Of a stretch of DNA of 64,000 nt, positions 57,869 to 62,772 are shown piece after piece. Position 1 is the first letter of the stretch. Each line of letters opens with the position of its first letter. The stretch comes from Alphaproteobacteria bacterium. Its GTDB lineage: Bacteria > Pseudomonadota > Alphaproteobacteria > JAQWUY01. Under the pieces are notes generated by a model. The model ran no database searches. It had not been told where the DNA came from and worked only from the letters and a program-made list of their open reading frames with translations. Location: assembly GCA_029250225.1 (NCBI GenBank), contig JAQWUY010000016.1:1-64000 (forward strand), written 5' to 3'. The translations under genes were made by a program, and so were the position numbers.

Positions 57869-58207
57869 ATGGCTTATGTAGTTGGTGAAAATTGTATTAA
57901 ATGTGTGTACTCCGATTGTGTTGATGTATGCCCCGTTGATTGCTTTTATGTGGGCGAAAATATGTTGGTTATCAATCCCGATGAATGTATCGATTGTGGT
58001 GTTTGTGAACCAGAATGCCCAGCTGAAGCCATTTTCCCAGACACAGATGAAAGAGCCGAGCCTTGGATGGAGTTAAATCGTGAATTTTCCGAAATATGGC
58101 CTAATATATCAGAAAAAAGAGATGCTCTTCCTGATGCCGATGAATGGAACGGCAAAGAAAATAAATATTCCGAACACTTTTCTAAGGAAGCCGGTGAAGG
58201 CGATTAA
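57869..58207 (+). CDS. fdxA: 7Fe-type ferredoxin (FdxA family)
   Basis: This seven-iron ferredoxin of 112 residues has an N-terminal [3Fe-4S] and a [4Fe-4S] cluster. The first cysteine set is in [18 protein letters not shown] (about 9-26) and the second in [16 protein letters not shown] (about 40-55). The acidic C-terminal tail is typical of FdxA. Electron donors could include the ferredoxin reductase at 8.9 kb. It lies 12 bp after purH, and its stop is followed within 3 bp by the first of two duplicated non-coding units. Confidence 0.93.
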
Positions 58208-58209
58208 TA

Positions 58210-58357
58210 GGTATGCATTAAATGCATACCAGACTTTACCTTATATCTATTTACAATATGGTACAGTATTGGTATAAGATAATTATCTTAAAGAACTTTT
58301 TGTATTTAAGACTCCCTGTTCAAACTTGCTAGGCTCTTATGAGCCTAGCTTTTTTTT
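58210..58357 (+). ncRNA. duplicated terminator-ended unit, copy 1 (candidate sRNA or fdxA 3' UTR RNA)
   Basis: This roughly 148 bp unit has no ORF. It begins with a perfect 9-bp hairpin, GGTATGCAT (58210-58218) and ATGCATACC (58222-58230). A dyad AAGATAATTATCTT follows near 58276-58290, then a short unpaired CTCCC-containing stretch, and a strong intrinsic terminator. It is repeated 240 bp downstream with four substitutions over about 140 bp. As it starts 3 bp after the fdxA stop, it could be a 3'-UTR-derived RNA. The RNA call is inference; the repeat and the terminator are directly visible. Confidence 0.5.
58328..58357 (+). terminator. intrinsic terminator of copy 1 / fdxA
   Basis: A perfect GC-rich 9-bp stem (GCTAGGCTC at 58328-58336 and GAGCCTAGC at 58341-58349) with loop TTAT is followed by eight T. 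It works rightward only; there is no T run on the other side. Confidence 0.93.
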
Positions 58358-58449
58358 ATTTTTTGAGAATTTTAACAATAGAAATAATGTTATGTATTTA
58401 TACTTAATGGTTTTTTCGTATTAAGTTATATTTTCTTCTTATAAAACTC

Positions 58450-58596
58450 GATATGCATCAAATGCATACCAGACTTTACCTTATATCTATTTACAATATG
58501 GTACGGCATTGGTATAAAATAATTATCTTAAAGAACTTTTTGTATTTAAGACTCCCTGTTCAAACTTGCTAGGCTCTTATGAGCCTAGCTTTTTTT
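58450..58596 (+). ncRNA. duplicated terminator-ended unit, copy 2 (candidate sRNA)
   Basis: This is the second copy of the 58210 unit. The first hairpin is shortened to TATGCAT/ATGCATA plus a mismatch, and the central dyad AAGATAATTATCTT loses a pair through a g-to-a change, while the single-stranded CTCCC stretch and the terminator are unchanged. Unlike copy 1 it is preceded by 92 bp of intergenic DNA, so if transcribed independently it needs its own promoter, for which I see only weak AT-rich options. It ends 3 bp before the convergent dusA stop. Confidence 0.5.
58568..58596 (+). terminator. intrinsic terminator of copy 2
   Basis: Same 9-bp stem and TTAT loop as copy 1 (58568-58576 and 58581-58589), followed by seven T. 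It faces the dusA 3' end and reads rightward. Confidence 0.93.
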
Positions 58597-58599
58597 ATT

Positions 58600-59574
58600 T
58601 TAATTTGTAAATTCAAGAGCTTTCTTAACTACATCTGTTGTAGTATCTTTATCAAACATATTTTCACTTAAATAGCGACGAAATGCTTTACCGCCTTTTT
58701 GTGAATGGAATATCCCCATAAGGTGTTTTGCCATTGTGCTAATAGGGGTGCCTTGTTTAGCTTGTGTATCCATATACTTAATGTATTCTAAAATAACTTC
58801 TTGTCTTGATAATATTTCATTATGTTCATTAAATAATATATTGTCGATATTGTGTAATACATCATATGGTGTTTGGTATGCACTTCGACCAATCATTGCT
58901 CCATCGACAAATTGTAAGTGTTGTTTTACTTGCTCTAAGTCTGTTATTCCGCCGTTTATTATTATTTTTAATTCAGGGAAATCTTGTTTTAGTTTATAAA
59001 CATAATCATATTTTAGAGGTGGTATTTGACGGTTTTCTTTGGGGCTTAATCCTTTTAAAATAGCAACTCTGGCGTGGACTATAAATGTTTTACATTTTGT
59101 TTTGTTCGCAACTATATCAACAAAAGACTTAACATTTTCATATTTATCATTATTATCAACACCAATACGATGTTTTATTGTCACTTCTTTGTCTGTATTG
59201 TTGGCCATTGCGTTCAAGCAATCCACAACTAGATCGGGTTCTTGCATCAATATTGCGCCAATTTTTCCATTTTGTACGCGTTCAGATGGACAACCAACAT
59301 TTAAATTTATTTCATCATAGTTATAATTTGTGCAATGTTTTGTTGCCGTTATTAGCTCATCTACATTTGAACCCCCTAGTTGCACAGCAATAGGGTGTTC
59401 AGATTCATTGTATTTTAAGTGTTTATCTACATCGCCGTATGTTAATGCGGGTGCGGTAACCATTTCAGTATATAGTAATGATTTTTTTGACATAATTCTA
59501 GCTAGAACGCGATAATGCCTATCTGTCCATTCCATCATCGGAGCTATGCTAAATGTTCTATCTATACTTCCCAT
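58600..59574 (-). CDS. dusA: tRNA-dihydrouridine synthase A
   Basis: DusA reduces uridines 20/20a in the tRNA D-loop using FMN and NADPH. It has SIAPMMEWTDRHYR, LNVGCPSERVQNG with the catalytic cysteine (near 96), VKHRIGVDN-like IKHRIGVDNNDKYE and INGGITDLEQV. The DusA-specific C-terminal HLMGIFHSQKGGKAFRRYLS is present. The frame extends to a TTG at 59586; the ATG at 59574 is preferred, giving 324 residues. Confidence 0.95.
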   Translation of the reverse strand: MGSIDRTFSIAPMMEWTDRHYRVLARIMSKKSLLYTEMVTAPALTYGDVDKHLKYNESEHPIAVQLGGSNVDELITATKHCTNYNYDEINLNVGCPSERVQNGKIGAILMQEPDLVVDCLNAMANNTDKEVTIKHRIGVDNNDKYENVKSFVDIVANKTKCKTFIVHARVAILKGLSPKENRQIPPLKYDYVYKLKQDFPELKIIINGGITDLEQVKQHLQFVDGAMIGRSAYQTPYDVLHNIDNILFNEHNEILSRQEVILEYIKYMDTQAKQGTPISTMAKHLMGIFHSQKGGKAFRRYLSENMFDKDTTTDVVKKALEFTN

Positions 59575-59633
59575 ATTAAACCACAATCTTTTTATTTTGA
59601 TTTACAATATTAATACAATGCAAGAAAATCAAA

Positions 59634-60418: not shown

Positions 60419-60556
60419 ATGAGTATTAAAAATGATATTGATTCTGTTGCATTTTATGCTTGTTCCACTAGTTGGTTCGAGGCAGTTTTTTGCTATCCAT
60501 TTTTTCAAGTAGCTATAAGTAGTTATTTGTGGGGTTATAATGGTTTACTTAGATAA
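60419..60556 (+). CDS. candidate 45-residue ORF in the SUF leader
   Basis: An ATG with AAAAGG seven bases upstream opens a 45-residue frame that ends 17 bp inside the first cysteine desulfurase gene. The peptide is hydrophobic and aromatic, with two cysteines (C15 and C25) and the stretch SWFEAVFCYPFFQVAISS, so it might be a small membrane protein or a regulatory leader peptide coupled to the downstream start. I recognise no family. Chance is not excluded for an ORF this short. Confidence 0.45.
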   Translation: MSIKNDIDSVAFYACSTSWFEAVFCYPFFQVAISSYLWGYNGLLR

Positions 60557-61640
60557 TAACGCTTCTATGGTGCCTTATGGCGAGGTATTGGAAGCATTGA
60601 ATGAAAATATTAAAAACAGTTTTAATGCGGGATCTGTTCACACAATGGGCAGAAATTCCAGAGCAAAAATTGAAAAAGCTAGATTAAAAATTGCTGATAT
60701 GATGGGTTGTAATGCCGAAGATGTACTTTTTACAAGTGGTGCAACTGAATCTAACAATATTGCTATTATGGGTGGCGGTGAAACTATTGCTCTTGTAGGT
60801 GCATTGGAACACCCTAGTGTTTTAAATGTTCACCCGAATACTCATATAATACCAGTTGATAGAAACGGTATTGTTGACTTAGAATTTATAGAAAACTTTT
60901 TAAAAGATAAAAAAGCAGGTGATGTTTTAGTTTCTGTTATGTATGCATCGCACGAAACCGGCACACTTCAACCTATAAAGGCAGTTGCTAAAATATGTGC
61001 TAAATATATGCAACGCTTTCACGTTGATGCCGTTCAAGGTGCAGGAAAAAGAAAAATAGATTTTATTAGTTCAGGTGCTAATTCTATGTCAATCACGGCT
61101 CATAAAATTGGTGGTGTGCAAGGTGTCGGTGCATTAATTTATAATCGAGCATTGAATTTAAATCCTTTAATGCGTGGCGGTGGGCAAGAAAAACAAATGC
61201 GCCCTGGTACAGTAAATGTTGCCGGTTGTGTTAGTTTTGGTGTTGCTTGCGATATATGCGTTGAAACAATGGACGAAAAAACAGAAAAACTTGATTATTT
61301 AAGGGATTATATGGAAAGCGAGATAACAGCTAGATGTCCTCGTGTTGAAATTGTTGCAAAAGATGTTGATAGGCTTACAGGAACTAGTAGAATTATTATG
61401 CCTAATGTTAATTCTGAAAAACAAGTAATGTTTATGGATTTAAAAGGTATATGTGTGGCATCGGGTTCTGCTTGTTCATCGGGTGTAGTCAAGGAATCAG
61501 GCGCCTTGCGAGCAATGGGTTATGATAAAAGCTGTATCGGTTCATCAATTCGTATTGGAATGAGTTTTGCTACGAACAAAGATGAAATAGATGAATTTAT
61601 AAAAATATATTGTGATATGTACGACAAAATGGCAAAGTAA
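60540..61640 (+). CDS. cysteine desulfurase (IscS/NifS class), first copy
   Basis: This PLP enzyme takes sulfur from cysteine for Fe-S cluster assembly. It has the family opening MVYLDNNASMVPY, the catalytic His in GALEHPSVL (about 89), the PLP lysine in SITAHKIGGVQG (about 187) and the mobile sulfur-carrying cysteine in VASGSACSSG (near 313). At 366 residues it lacks the longer C-terminus of IscS. GGGG precedes the ATG. It heads the SUF run and is followed after 4 bp by a paralogue. Confidence 0.92.
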   Translation: MVYLDNNASMVPYGEVLEALNENIKNSFNAGSVHTMGRNSRAKIEKARLKIADMMGCNAEDVLFTSGATESNNIAIMGGGETIALVGALEHPSVLNVHPNTHIIPVDRNGIVDLEFIENFLKDKKAGDVLVSVMYASHETGTLQPIKAVAKICAKYMQRFHVDAVQGAGKRKIDFISSGANSMSITAHKIGGVQGVGALIYNRALNLNPLMRGGGQEKQMRPGTVNVAGCVSFGVACDICVETMDEKTEKLDYLRDYMESEITARCPRVEIVAKDVDRLTGTSRIIMPNVNSEKQVMFMDLKGICVASGSACSSGVVKESGALRAMGYDKSCIGSSIRIGMSFATNKDEIDEFIKIYCDMYDKMAK

Positions 61641-61644
61641 TATT

Positions 61645-62772
61645 ATGAGTATTATTTATCTAGATAATTTTGCCTCAACACCTGTTGATAAAGAAGTTTT
61701 GCAAGAAATAAACTATGTTATGCAAAATAATTTTGCAAATCCGCATTCTGTGAGTCACGAATTAGGCTGGGAATGTAACGACATAATAGATAATGCAAGA
61801 CTTAAAGTTGCTAAGTTAGTTGGTGCAAAGTCGAATAATGTAATATTTACTAGTGGTGCGACTGAATCAAATAATACGCTTATAAAGTGTCTTAAATACA
61901 ACAATAATAAAAAAACTATTTTAGTATCCGAGATTGAACACCCTTGTGTGTTACAAAGTGCTAAATTTATGGAAAAACACGGATTTAGTGTTAAATATAT
62001 CCCTGTTGATAGTGTTGGGCGTATCAATATGGATAAGTTTCGTGAATTACTTGATGATACAGTTGCTTTGGTAAGCATTATGTTAGTAAATCACGAAATC
62101 GGTACAATCCAAGATATAAAAGCTATATCTGATATGACTCATTCCGTTAATGCCTTATTGCATTCAGATTGTGCCCAAGCTATTGGAAAAATCGATATTG
62201 ATATGGAAACTATGGGAATTGATGCGATTAGTATTTCAGGACATAAATTTTATGCTTCGAAAGGTATTGGTGCTTTAATTTGCAATGAAAAAGTAGATAT
62301 AGTTTCATTAATCGATGGTGGCGGACAAGAAAAAAGTATACGCTCCGGCACACTGCCTACTCCGCTGATAGCAGGTTTGGGCAAGGCTTGTGAATTAGCA
62401 GAAAAAAACCTTGCTGATGATATTGTAGAAATTTCTAAGTTAAGAGATTATATGGAATCCGAATTATTGCAAAAAATACCTAATTCTAAATCTTTGGGTG
62501 ATGCCAAAAATCGTATATCAGGTAGTATCAATTTATATGTTCCAAATATTTATACAGATGATTTTTTTGTTAATTTACAAGGAGTTGCTATTTCATCTGG
62601 TTCTGCTTGTGCTTCTGCGGGTAAAAAAGCCTCAAATGTTTTACAAGCAATAGGAATTTCTCCGAAAGTTGAAGCATTATCGATGCGAATATGTATTTCG
62701 AATAAAAATACAAAAAATGAAATAGATATAGCTATTAAAAATATAGTCTCAGCAATAGATAAAACTAAATAA
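61645..62772 (+). CDS. cysteine desulfurase (IscS/NifS class), second copy
   Basis: A paralogue of the preceding gene, clearly diverged. It has YLDNFASTPVDKEV, His in SEIEHPCVL (about 100), the PLP lysine in SISGHKFYASKGIG (about 205) and the sulfur cysteine in ISSGSACASAGKKAS (near 328). All catalytic residues are present. The frame extends to 61612 inside the previous gene, but the ATG at 61645 (MSIIYLDN) is preferred, giving 375 residues. Confidence 0.93.
   Translation: MSIIYLDNFASTPVDKEVLQEINYVMQNNFANPHSVSHELGWECNDIIDNARLKVAKLVGAKSNNVIFTSGATESNNTLIKCLKYNNNKKTILVSEIEHPCVLQSAKFMEKHGFSVKYIPVDSVGRINMDKFRELLDDTVALVSIMLVNHEIGTIQDIKAISDMTHSVNALLHSDCAQAIGKIDIDMETMGIDAISISGHKFYASKGIGALICNEKVDIVSLIDGGGQEKSIRSGTLPTPLIAGLGKACELAEKNLADDIVEISKLRDYMESELLQKIPNSKSLGDAKNRISGSINLYVPNIYTDDFFVNLQGVAISSGSACASAGKKASNVLQAIGISPKVEALSMRICISNKNTKNEIDIAIKNIVSAIDKTK

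Follow-up and report, generated by a model that had tools for sequence, protein, structure and literature searches.

AbcR1 and AbcR2 are the small RNAs (sRNAs) encoded downstream of trxB-lsrB/vtlR in A. tumefaciens and S. meliloti (PMC7486931; PMC8844928). The published LsrB/VtlR box reads GCAT-N3-TG-N3-T (PMC8844928, PMC7486931) and, in the abcR1 promoter of S. meliloti, spans −61 to −49 (PMC8844928). In rhizobia, Agrobacterium and Brucella, where they have mostly been studied, LsrB/VtlR and the AbcR sRNAs control the uptake of nutrients and the interaction with the host. A second described type, SmelC671/Sm84, is defined by two variable hairpins that flank a single-stranded CUCCCUGU, the terminator forming the 3′ hairpin (PMC3927594), and Sm84 gives a band of ~80 nt (PMC2573895). 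In the present paper we describe a tandemly repeated non-coding unit between fdxA and dusA in a 64,000-nucleotide stretch (the window; 30.6% GC) that belongs to a contig of an alphaproteobacterial genome of ~1.2 Mb. Comparison of sequences leads us to consider it likely that the unit encodes twin anti-Shine-Dalgarno sRNAs under LsrB control, which would act by an AbcR-like mechanism and have been relocated beside fdxA and shortened.

Anatomy of the repeated unit

The unit is ~145 bp long and its two copies (58212-58356 and 58452-58596) are set 240 bp apart, with 96% identity across 150 nt. Exactly four substitutions separate them (58219 T/C, 58265 A/G, 58267 T/C and 58278 G/A), whereas both copies have the same CTCCC (starting at 58312 and 58552) and the same terminator, apart from a U-tract of 8 T in copy 1 and 7 T in copy 2. 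The spacing, the number of changes and the unchanged CTCCC and terminator agree with an earlier note made from the sequence of this DNA. The 1.2-Mb genome holds only these two copies, both at this locus; a dispersed repeat, which that note had named as a refuting result, was not found there. As 90 bp of unrelated sequence separates the copies and their 5′ boundaries differ, assembly stutter looks unlikely.

Each unit comprises, in order, a palindrome, a sigma-70-like promoter, a predicted start, hairpin 1, a linker and a terminator (Table 1). By inspection, the promoter has 10 of the 12 consensus bases and a 17-nt spacer in both copies, and the predicted start, which is accurate to a few bases, lies ~7 nt 3′ of the −10 box. 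One substitution falls at the centre of the dyad and two in the promoter spacer; the fourth changes the final base of the −10 box, and none lies within the predicted RNA. Since all four precede the predicted start, instead of lying in hairpin stems and loops as had been proposed, both copies would yield the same RNA, identical save for the length of the U-tail. With the promoter inside the unit, this RNA is predicted to be ~73 nt long and not the 120-150 nt expected previously, and the 73-nt stretch has no ATG ahead of the terminator.

Folding of the whole unit gave z-scores of −5.6 and −4.1 against shuffled sequences. However, because the promoter TTTACA-17-TATAAG/A lies downstream of it within the unit, the palindrome at 58210-58230 is most likely an operator dyad in the DNA, outside the RNA, and the upstream ~70 bp are better explained by a promoter and a LysR-type operator than by RNA. 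Of the hairpin, unpaired CTCCC and terminator given in the earlier note, the last two are retained, and its 5′ hairpin is on this reading a dyad that precedes the promoter. Each unit is probably a complete sRNA gene, with a predicted RNA of ~73 nt that is the same in both copies.

Relatives across the Alphaproteobacteria

A covariance model, R1, was built on the predicted RNA and used to search 385 genomes of the class with a match cut-off of E≤1. Matches were obtained in 50 of these genomes, the source genome included, and the best foreign match scored 47.6 bits (E 7.5e-6). The covariance search that had been recommended was thus productive; the recommended BLASTN comparison of the unit, run against 58 genomes, returned only AT-rich chance matches of 18-35 nt. 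The R1 matches share a layout of a hairpin (most often ACGUCUCCCAGACGU), then GAAGCCUCCCUGUU-A-ACUUG and then a terminator.

Conservation of the fold was assessed in an alignment of 25 relatives, whose rows were chosen by a CTCCCT pattern. Double-sided compensatory changes were present at all 11 of the tested pairs, and 83.6% of cells were compatible with pairing compared with 65.7% in shuffles. The covariation score was 0.43, against 0.155 in shuffles (0 of 500 equalled it), and fell to 0.14-0.18 when the pairing partners were slid by one base. The conserved core is CUCCCUGU; because rows were picked with CTCCCT, its invariance in this alignment is partly due to selection, and it is also found in most rows of the R1 covariance-model hits, to which no such filter applied. 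That relatives keep both helices by compensatory change supports the original reading of a twin, terminator-ended sRNA with an exposed CUCCC anti-Shine-Dalgarno stretch.

Linkage to lsrB and a shared putative operator

Most R1 matches lie 150-260 nt 3′ of a LysR gene beginning MDWDKLRIFHAVAEAGSFTHAGE, which itself follows a thioredoxin reductase gene; judged by sequence, the neighbourhood of the relatives is trxB-lsrB/vtlR. In a reverse survey of 115 genomes, confined to the 30 top-scoring lsrB loci and thus not a random draw, a CUCCCU...terminator sRNA was found 3′ of lsrB in 22, and the dyad ATGC-N7-GCAT was present at 17 of those 22 loci and at none of the eight without the sRNA. Among 29 relatives, this dyad precedes the sRNA in 15 (shuffles: mean 0.08, maximum 1), and its spacing is specific, with 15 exact occurrences at N7 and ≤2 at any other spacing. 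The LsrB box aligns to the 3′ half of the dyad with ≤1 mismatch in 12 of the 15; at these loci, 21% of background GCAT sites do so. In the window the box reads GCATACCAGACTT, with one mismatch, and in both copies it occupies −61 to −49, the position of the S. meliloti abcR1 box. The extended form TATGCAT-N3-ATGCATA occurs genome-wide only at the two window copies; the short ATGC-N7-GCAT occurs 30 times in the genome and is therefore not specific by itself.

Hfq is encoded in the genome, and so is a single lsrB orthologue (289 aa aligned at 43% identity), the only LysR-type (PF00126) gene that we found there. Given that a LysR-type operator fronts both sRNAs and that the genome has a single LysR gene, LsrB is the obvious candidate activator, and both sRNA genes are probably switched on by it.

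Some relatives have features of their own. Triple tandem arrays occur in two genomes (G167 and G341), downstream of lsrB (L115, 1500-2100, and L121, 987-1575 respectively); in these arrays hairpin 1 has diverged, CCUCCCUGUUAGACUUGCC is constant and most copies have their own dyad-like site. Away from lsrB, the relative at 1477-1549 of L116 (G104) adjoins a tyrosine integrase gene and an int-alpA RNA (RF02996), and is possibly carried by a mobile element or serves as the site at which one integrates. Three further relatives that are not lsrB-adjacent (L118, L137 and L141, in G239, G005 and G320) show an extra CACCUCCCUGUACCU hairpin loop ~100 nt upstream.

Table 1. Predicted features of the two sRNA genes and flanking genes (window positions)
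Feature	Position	Strand	Basis or remark
fdxA	57869-58207	+	Flanks copy 1; stop 3 bp ahead of the dyad
Copy 1 operator-like dyad GGTATGCATTAAATGCATACC	58210-58230	n/a	Same dyad ahead of sRNAs of relatives; centre ~−65 from predicted start
Copy 1 dyad core ATGC-N7-GCAT	58213-58227		Contains LysR-type T-N11-A
Copy 1 LsrB/VtlR box match, 1 mismatch	58224-58236	+	−61 to −49 from predicted start
Copy 1 sigma-70-like promoter TTTACA-17-TATAAG	58250-58278	+	Inspection; −10 ends at 58278
Copy 1 predicted sRNA, ~73 nt	58285-58357	+	Start inferred; end at terminator U-tract
Copy 1 hairpin 1 UCUUAAA-GAACUUUUUGUA-UUUAAGA, U-rich loop	58286-58311	+	Folding; covariation in relatives
Copy 1 single-stranded linker CUCCCUGUUCAAACUU, anti-Shine-Dalgarno core CUCCCUGU	58312-58327	+	
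Copy 1 intrinsic terminator, 9-bp stem, 8 T	58328-58357	+	First terminator 3′ of fdxA
Copy 2 operator-like dyad ATGC-N7-GCAT	58453-58467	n/a	Core of the copy 1 palindrome
Copy 2 LsrB/VtlR box match, 1 mismatch	58464-58476	+	−61 to −49 from predicted start
Copy 2 sigma-70-like promoter TTTACA-17-TATAAA	58490-58518	+	Inspection
Copy 2 predicted sRNA, ~72 nt	58525-58596	+	Same as copy 1 until the U-tract
Copy 2 anti-Shine-Dalgarno core CTCCCTGT	58552-58559	+	
Copy 2 intrinsic terminator	58568-58596	+	
dusA	58600-59586	−	Faces copy 2

Proposed mechanism and candidate targets

The repeat, its architecture, the relatives with their covariation and lsrB linkage, the shared dyad, the one LysR gene and hfq were all computed here, and to them we add a mechanism in which transcription, its exact start, LsrB binding and the targets are what we infer. 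Two tandem paralogous genes would each produce the same ~73-nt trans-acting sRNA. LsrB would bind the dyad at about −65/−61 and activate the sigma-70 promoter, the cue being, as in rhizobia, probably the redox or metabolic state. Transcription would stop at the Rho-independent terminator of the gene itself, Hfq would load onto the U-tail and the A/U-rich linker of the RNA, and the exposed CUCCCUGU seed would pair with G-rich ribosome-binding sites and so block translation. By origin, the gene would be a relocated, shortened, single-seed form of the lsrB-linked (AbcR-position) sRNA of other Alphaproteobacteria, and its duplication may have raised dosage, or slightly split expression via the promoter differences, with the RNA unchanged.

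The core CUCCCUGU is complementary to ACAGGGAG, which is Shine-Dalgarno-like. Targets were sought in 817 kb, or 68% of the genome, where CAGGGAG is found three times: on the complementary strand of each of the two sRNA genes and in the ribosome-binding site of glyA. The latter reads AACAGGGAGT (G000 C14:86000, locus L210, 6000, minus strand), and its segment AACAGGGAGU, at −14 to −5, offers 10 continuous pairs with the sRNA seed; we regard glyA as a good single candidate target.

Several observations weigh against this interpretation. The lsrB gene of this genome is unlinked to the sRNAs, being located on another contig (C18, 35435-36304) and followed by glyQ without such an sRNA, and linkage to lsrB is also absent from the relatives at L117, L118, L122, L126, L133, L137 and L141. 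The window RNA is without the loop CUCCCA found in most relatives and, at ~73 nt, is shorter than the AbcR RNAs (114-121 nt). Both the promoter and the start are predictions within an AT-rich genome, and an automatic promoter scan, with a tool that demands T as the last −10 base, did not list this promoter. Duplex energies over the 817 kb were no better than those of shuffled seeds, and glyA was rejected as a conserved target, as the site is present in one of 29 genomes (this one) and missing in the 28 others.

Alternative explanations

The best surviving alternative, which we nevertheless consider unlikely, is that copy 1 is an fdxA sRNA derived from the 3′-untranslated region (3′-UTR), cut by RNase E from a purH-fdxA transcript as are SorX and CcsR in Rhodobacter, with the palindrome forming a hairpin in the UTR RNA. 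A gap of 3 bp separates the fdxA stop (58207) from the dyad, the terminator of copy 1 is the first that follows fdxA, 3′-UTR-derived CUCCC sRNAs are known (PMC8625941), and a good fold is obtained for the whole unit when the palindrome forms a hairpin. However, no gene of its own precedes copy 2, which still keeps both dyad and promoter, the dyad is kept before the sRNAs of relatives as a DNA motif of fixed spacing, and a look at 80 fdxA loci in other Alphaproteobacteria revealed no such sRNA.

It is more improbable again that the RNA is a decoy or sponge, titrating another sRNA or an RNA-binding protein with no action on mRNA. Pairing between sRNAs is real in this class, because the related Caulobacter alphaR8 sRNAs (core UUUCCUCCCU) are titrated by a sponge RNA (PMC12559287), and the genome-wide target energies, being unremarkable, would suit such a role; on the other side, the seed is C-rich and complementary to the Shine-Dalgarno sequence, and the AbcR-position relatives act at ribosome-binding sites (PMC8844928, PMC5461406). 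Although strong intrinsic terminators in tandem duplication might suggest that the repeat has no function as RNA and is simply a duplicated terminator or a dispersed repeat, this is very hard to credit for a unit with only two genomic copies, in which compensatory changes accompany the conservation of seed and both helices across orders and whose duplication takes in promoter and operator.

Neighbouring sequences

On the minus strand, that of dusA, the first element bearing a U-tract in 58440-58600 is a weak palindrome (58471-58449), and dusA transcripts may cross copy 2 in antisense, ACAGGGAGU included. The possibility that the dyad is a minus-strand terminator of dusA was rejected, as a weak U-tract follows the dyad in copy 2 only and copy 1 would be left unexplained. 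At 60540-61640 and 61612-62772 there are tandem cysteine-desulfurase-like genes (NifS/IscS type) that slightly overlap.

Significance and comparison with known sRNA families

Taken with the survey of relatives, the twin, probably LsrB-controlled sRNAs suggest that much of the Alphaproteobacteria has conserved regulator, operator and CUCCCUGU sRNA together as one unit. Two points are new: the lsrB-linked sRNA has a class-wide CUCCCUGU form, accompanied by the N7 dyad, and the genome described here has a shortened, duplicated and relocated version of it. A broader proposal, which we advance tentatively and which may well not hold, is that a class-wide LsrB-CUCCCUGU sRNA module without an Rfam model is ancestral to rhizobial AbcR1/2, and perhaps to Sm84, SorX and alpha-r8, and that in the present genome it has become a 73-nt, one-seed RNA, moved off lsrB, duplicated and served in trans by a lone LysR protein. 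The operator signature ATGC-N7-GCAT and the seed provide testable handles, and a minimal version in a single-LysR genome offers a simple system for the core function of the module.

At gathering thresholds, Rfam models gave no match anywhere in the window. SorX (RF02784) and the CcsR/cuckoo RNAs of Rhodobacter share the hairpin-CUCCC-terminator layout but, in contrast with the window genes, SorX and CcsR are processed from the 3′ UTRs of other genes; both window copies scored 21.4 bits with the SorX model, below its gathering score of 46.6. The alpha-r8/suhB/MmgR RNAs and Caulobacter SisA-D (RF00519) are likewise ~77 nt long with a hairpin, CUCCCU and a terminator, but have the core UUUCCUCCCU and usually adjoin an FGase gene. 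The window copies scored 23.4 and 20.9 bits with this model (gathering score 41), and its matches over their own genome were unrelated terminators. On the relatives tested, the ar15, suhB and SorX models were also below threshold, SorX coming nearest with 44.9 of 46.6 bits.

AbcR1/AbcR2 (alpha-r15; Rhizobiales, activator LsrB/VtlR) resemble the window system in the trxB-lsrB-sRNA order seen for the relatives, in a sigma-70 promoter preceded by an LsrB box at −61 to −49 (here by sequence, in both copies, from the predicted start), in having Hfq in the genome, and in a hairpin, a single-stranded anti-Shine-Dalgarno stretch and a terminator, often in tandem pairs. They differ in having two seeds (CUCCUCCC and UUCCCCUC; in Brucella, CUCCCA and GUUCCC), one of which lies in the loop of hairpin 1, whereas the window RNA has a UUUUU loop and the single CUCCCUGU seed; moreover, its copies do not adjoin lsrB/vtlR and give the same RNA. 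AbcR RNAs are further characterized by Hfq-dependent repression of ABC-transporter mRNAs; of this, the hfq gene is present here. The ar15 model (RF02345) had no match at E≤10 in 58190-58620, and none over 58 genomes of the class, where no positive control responded either. As Rfam model, lsrB linkage and second seed were each looked for and not found, we do not file the window RNA as an AbcR (ar15) sRNA.

It does have the single-stranded CUCCCUGU, the two hairpins and the 3′ terminator of SmelC671/Sm84 (ReC71), a likeness in core and layout to the family as it is described; in PMC3927594 that family is confined to Rhizobiales, with no regulator or target described, and it is not reported beside lsrB. 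That the earlier note could assign the RNA to no known family is thus half right: it holds for Rfam families at threshold, whereas the RNA is connected by its position, operator and core motif with the LsrB-AbcR module and with CUCCCUGU sRNAs of the SmelC671/Sm84 type.
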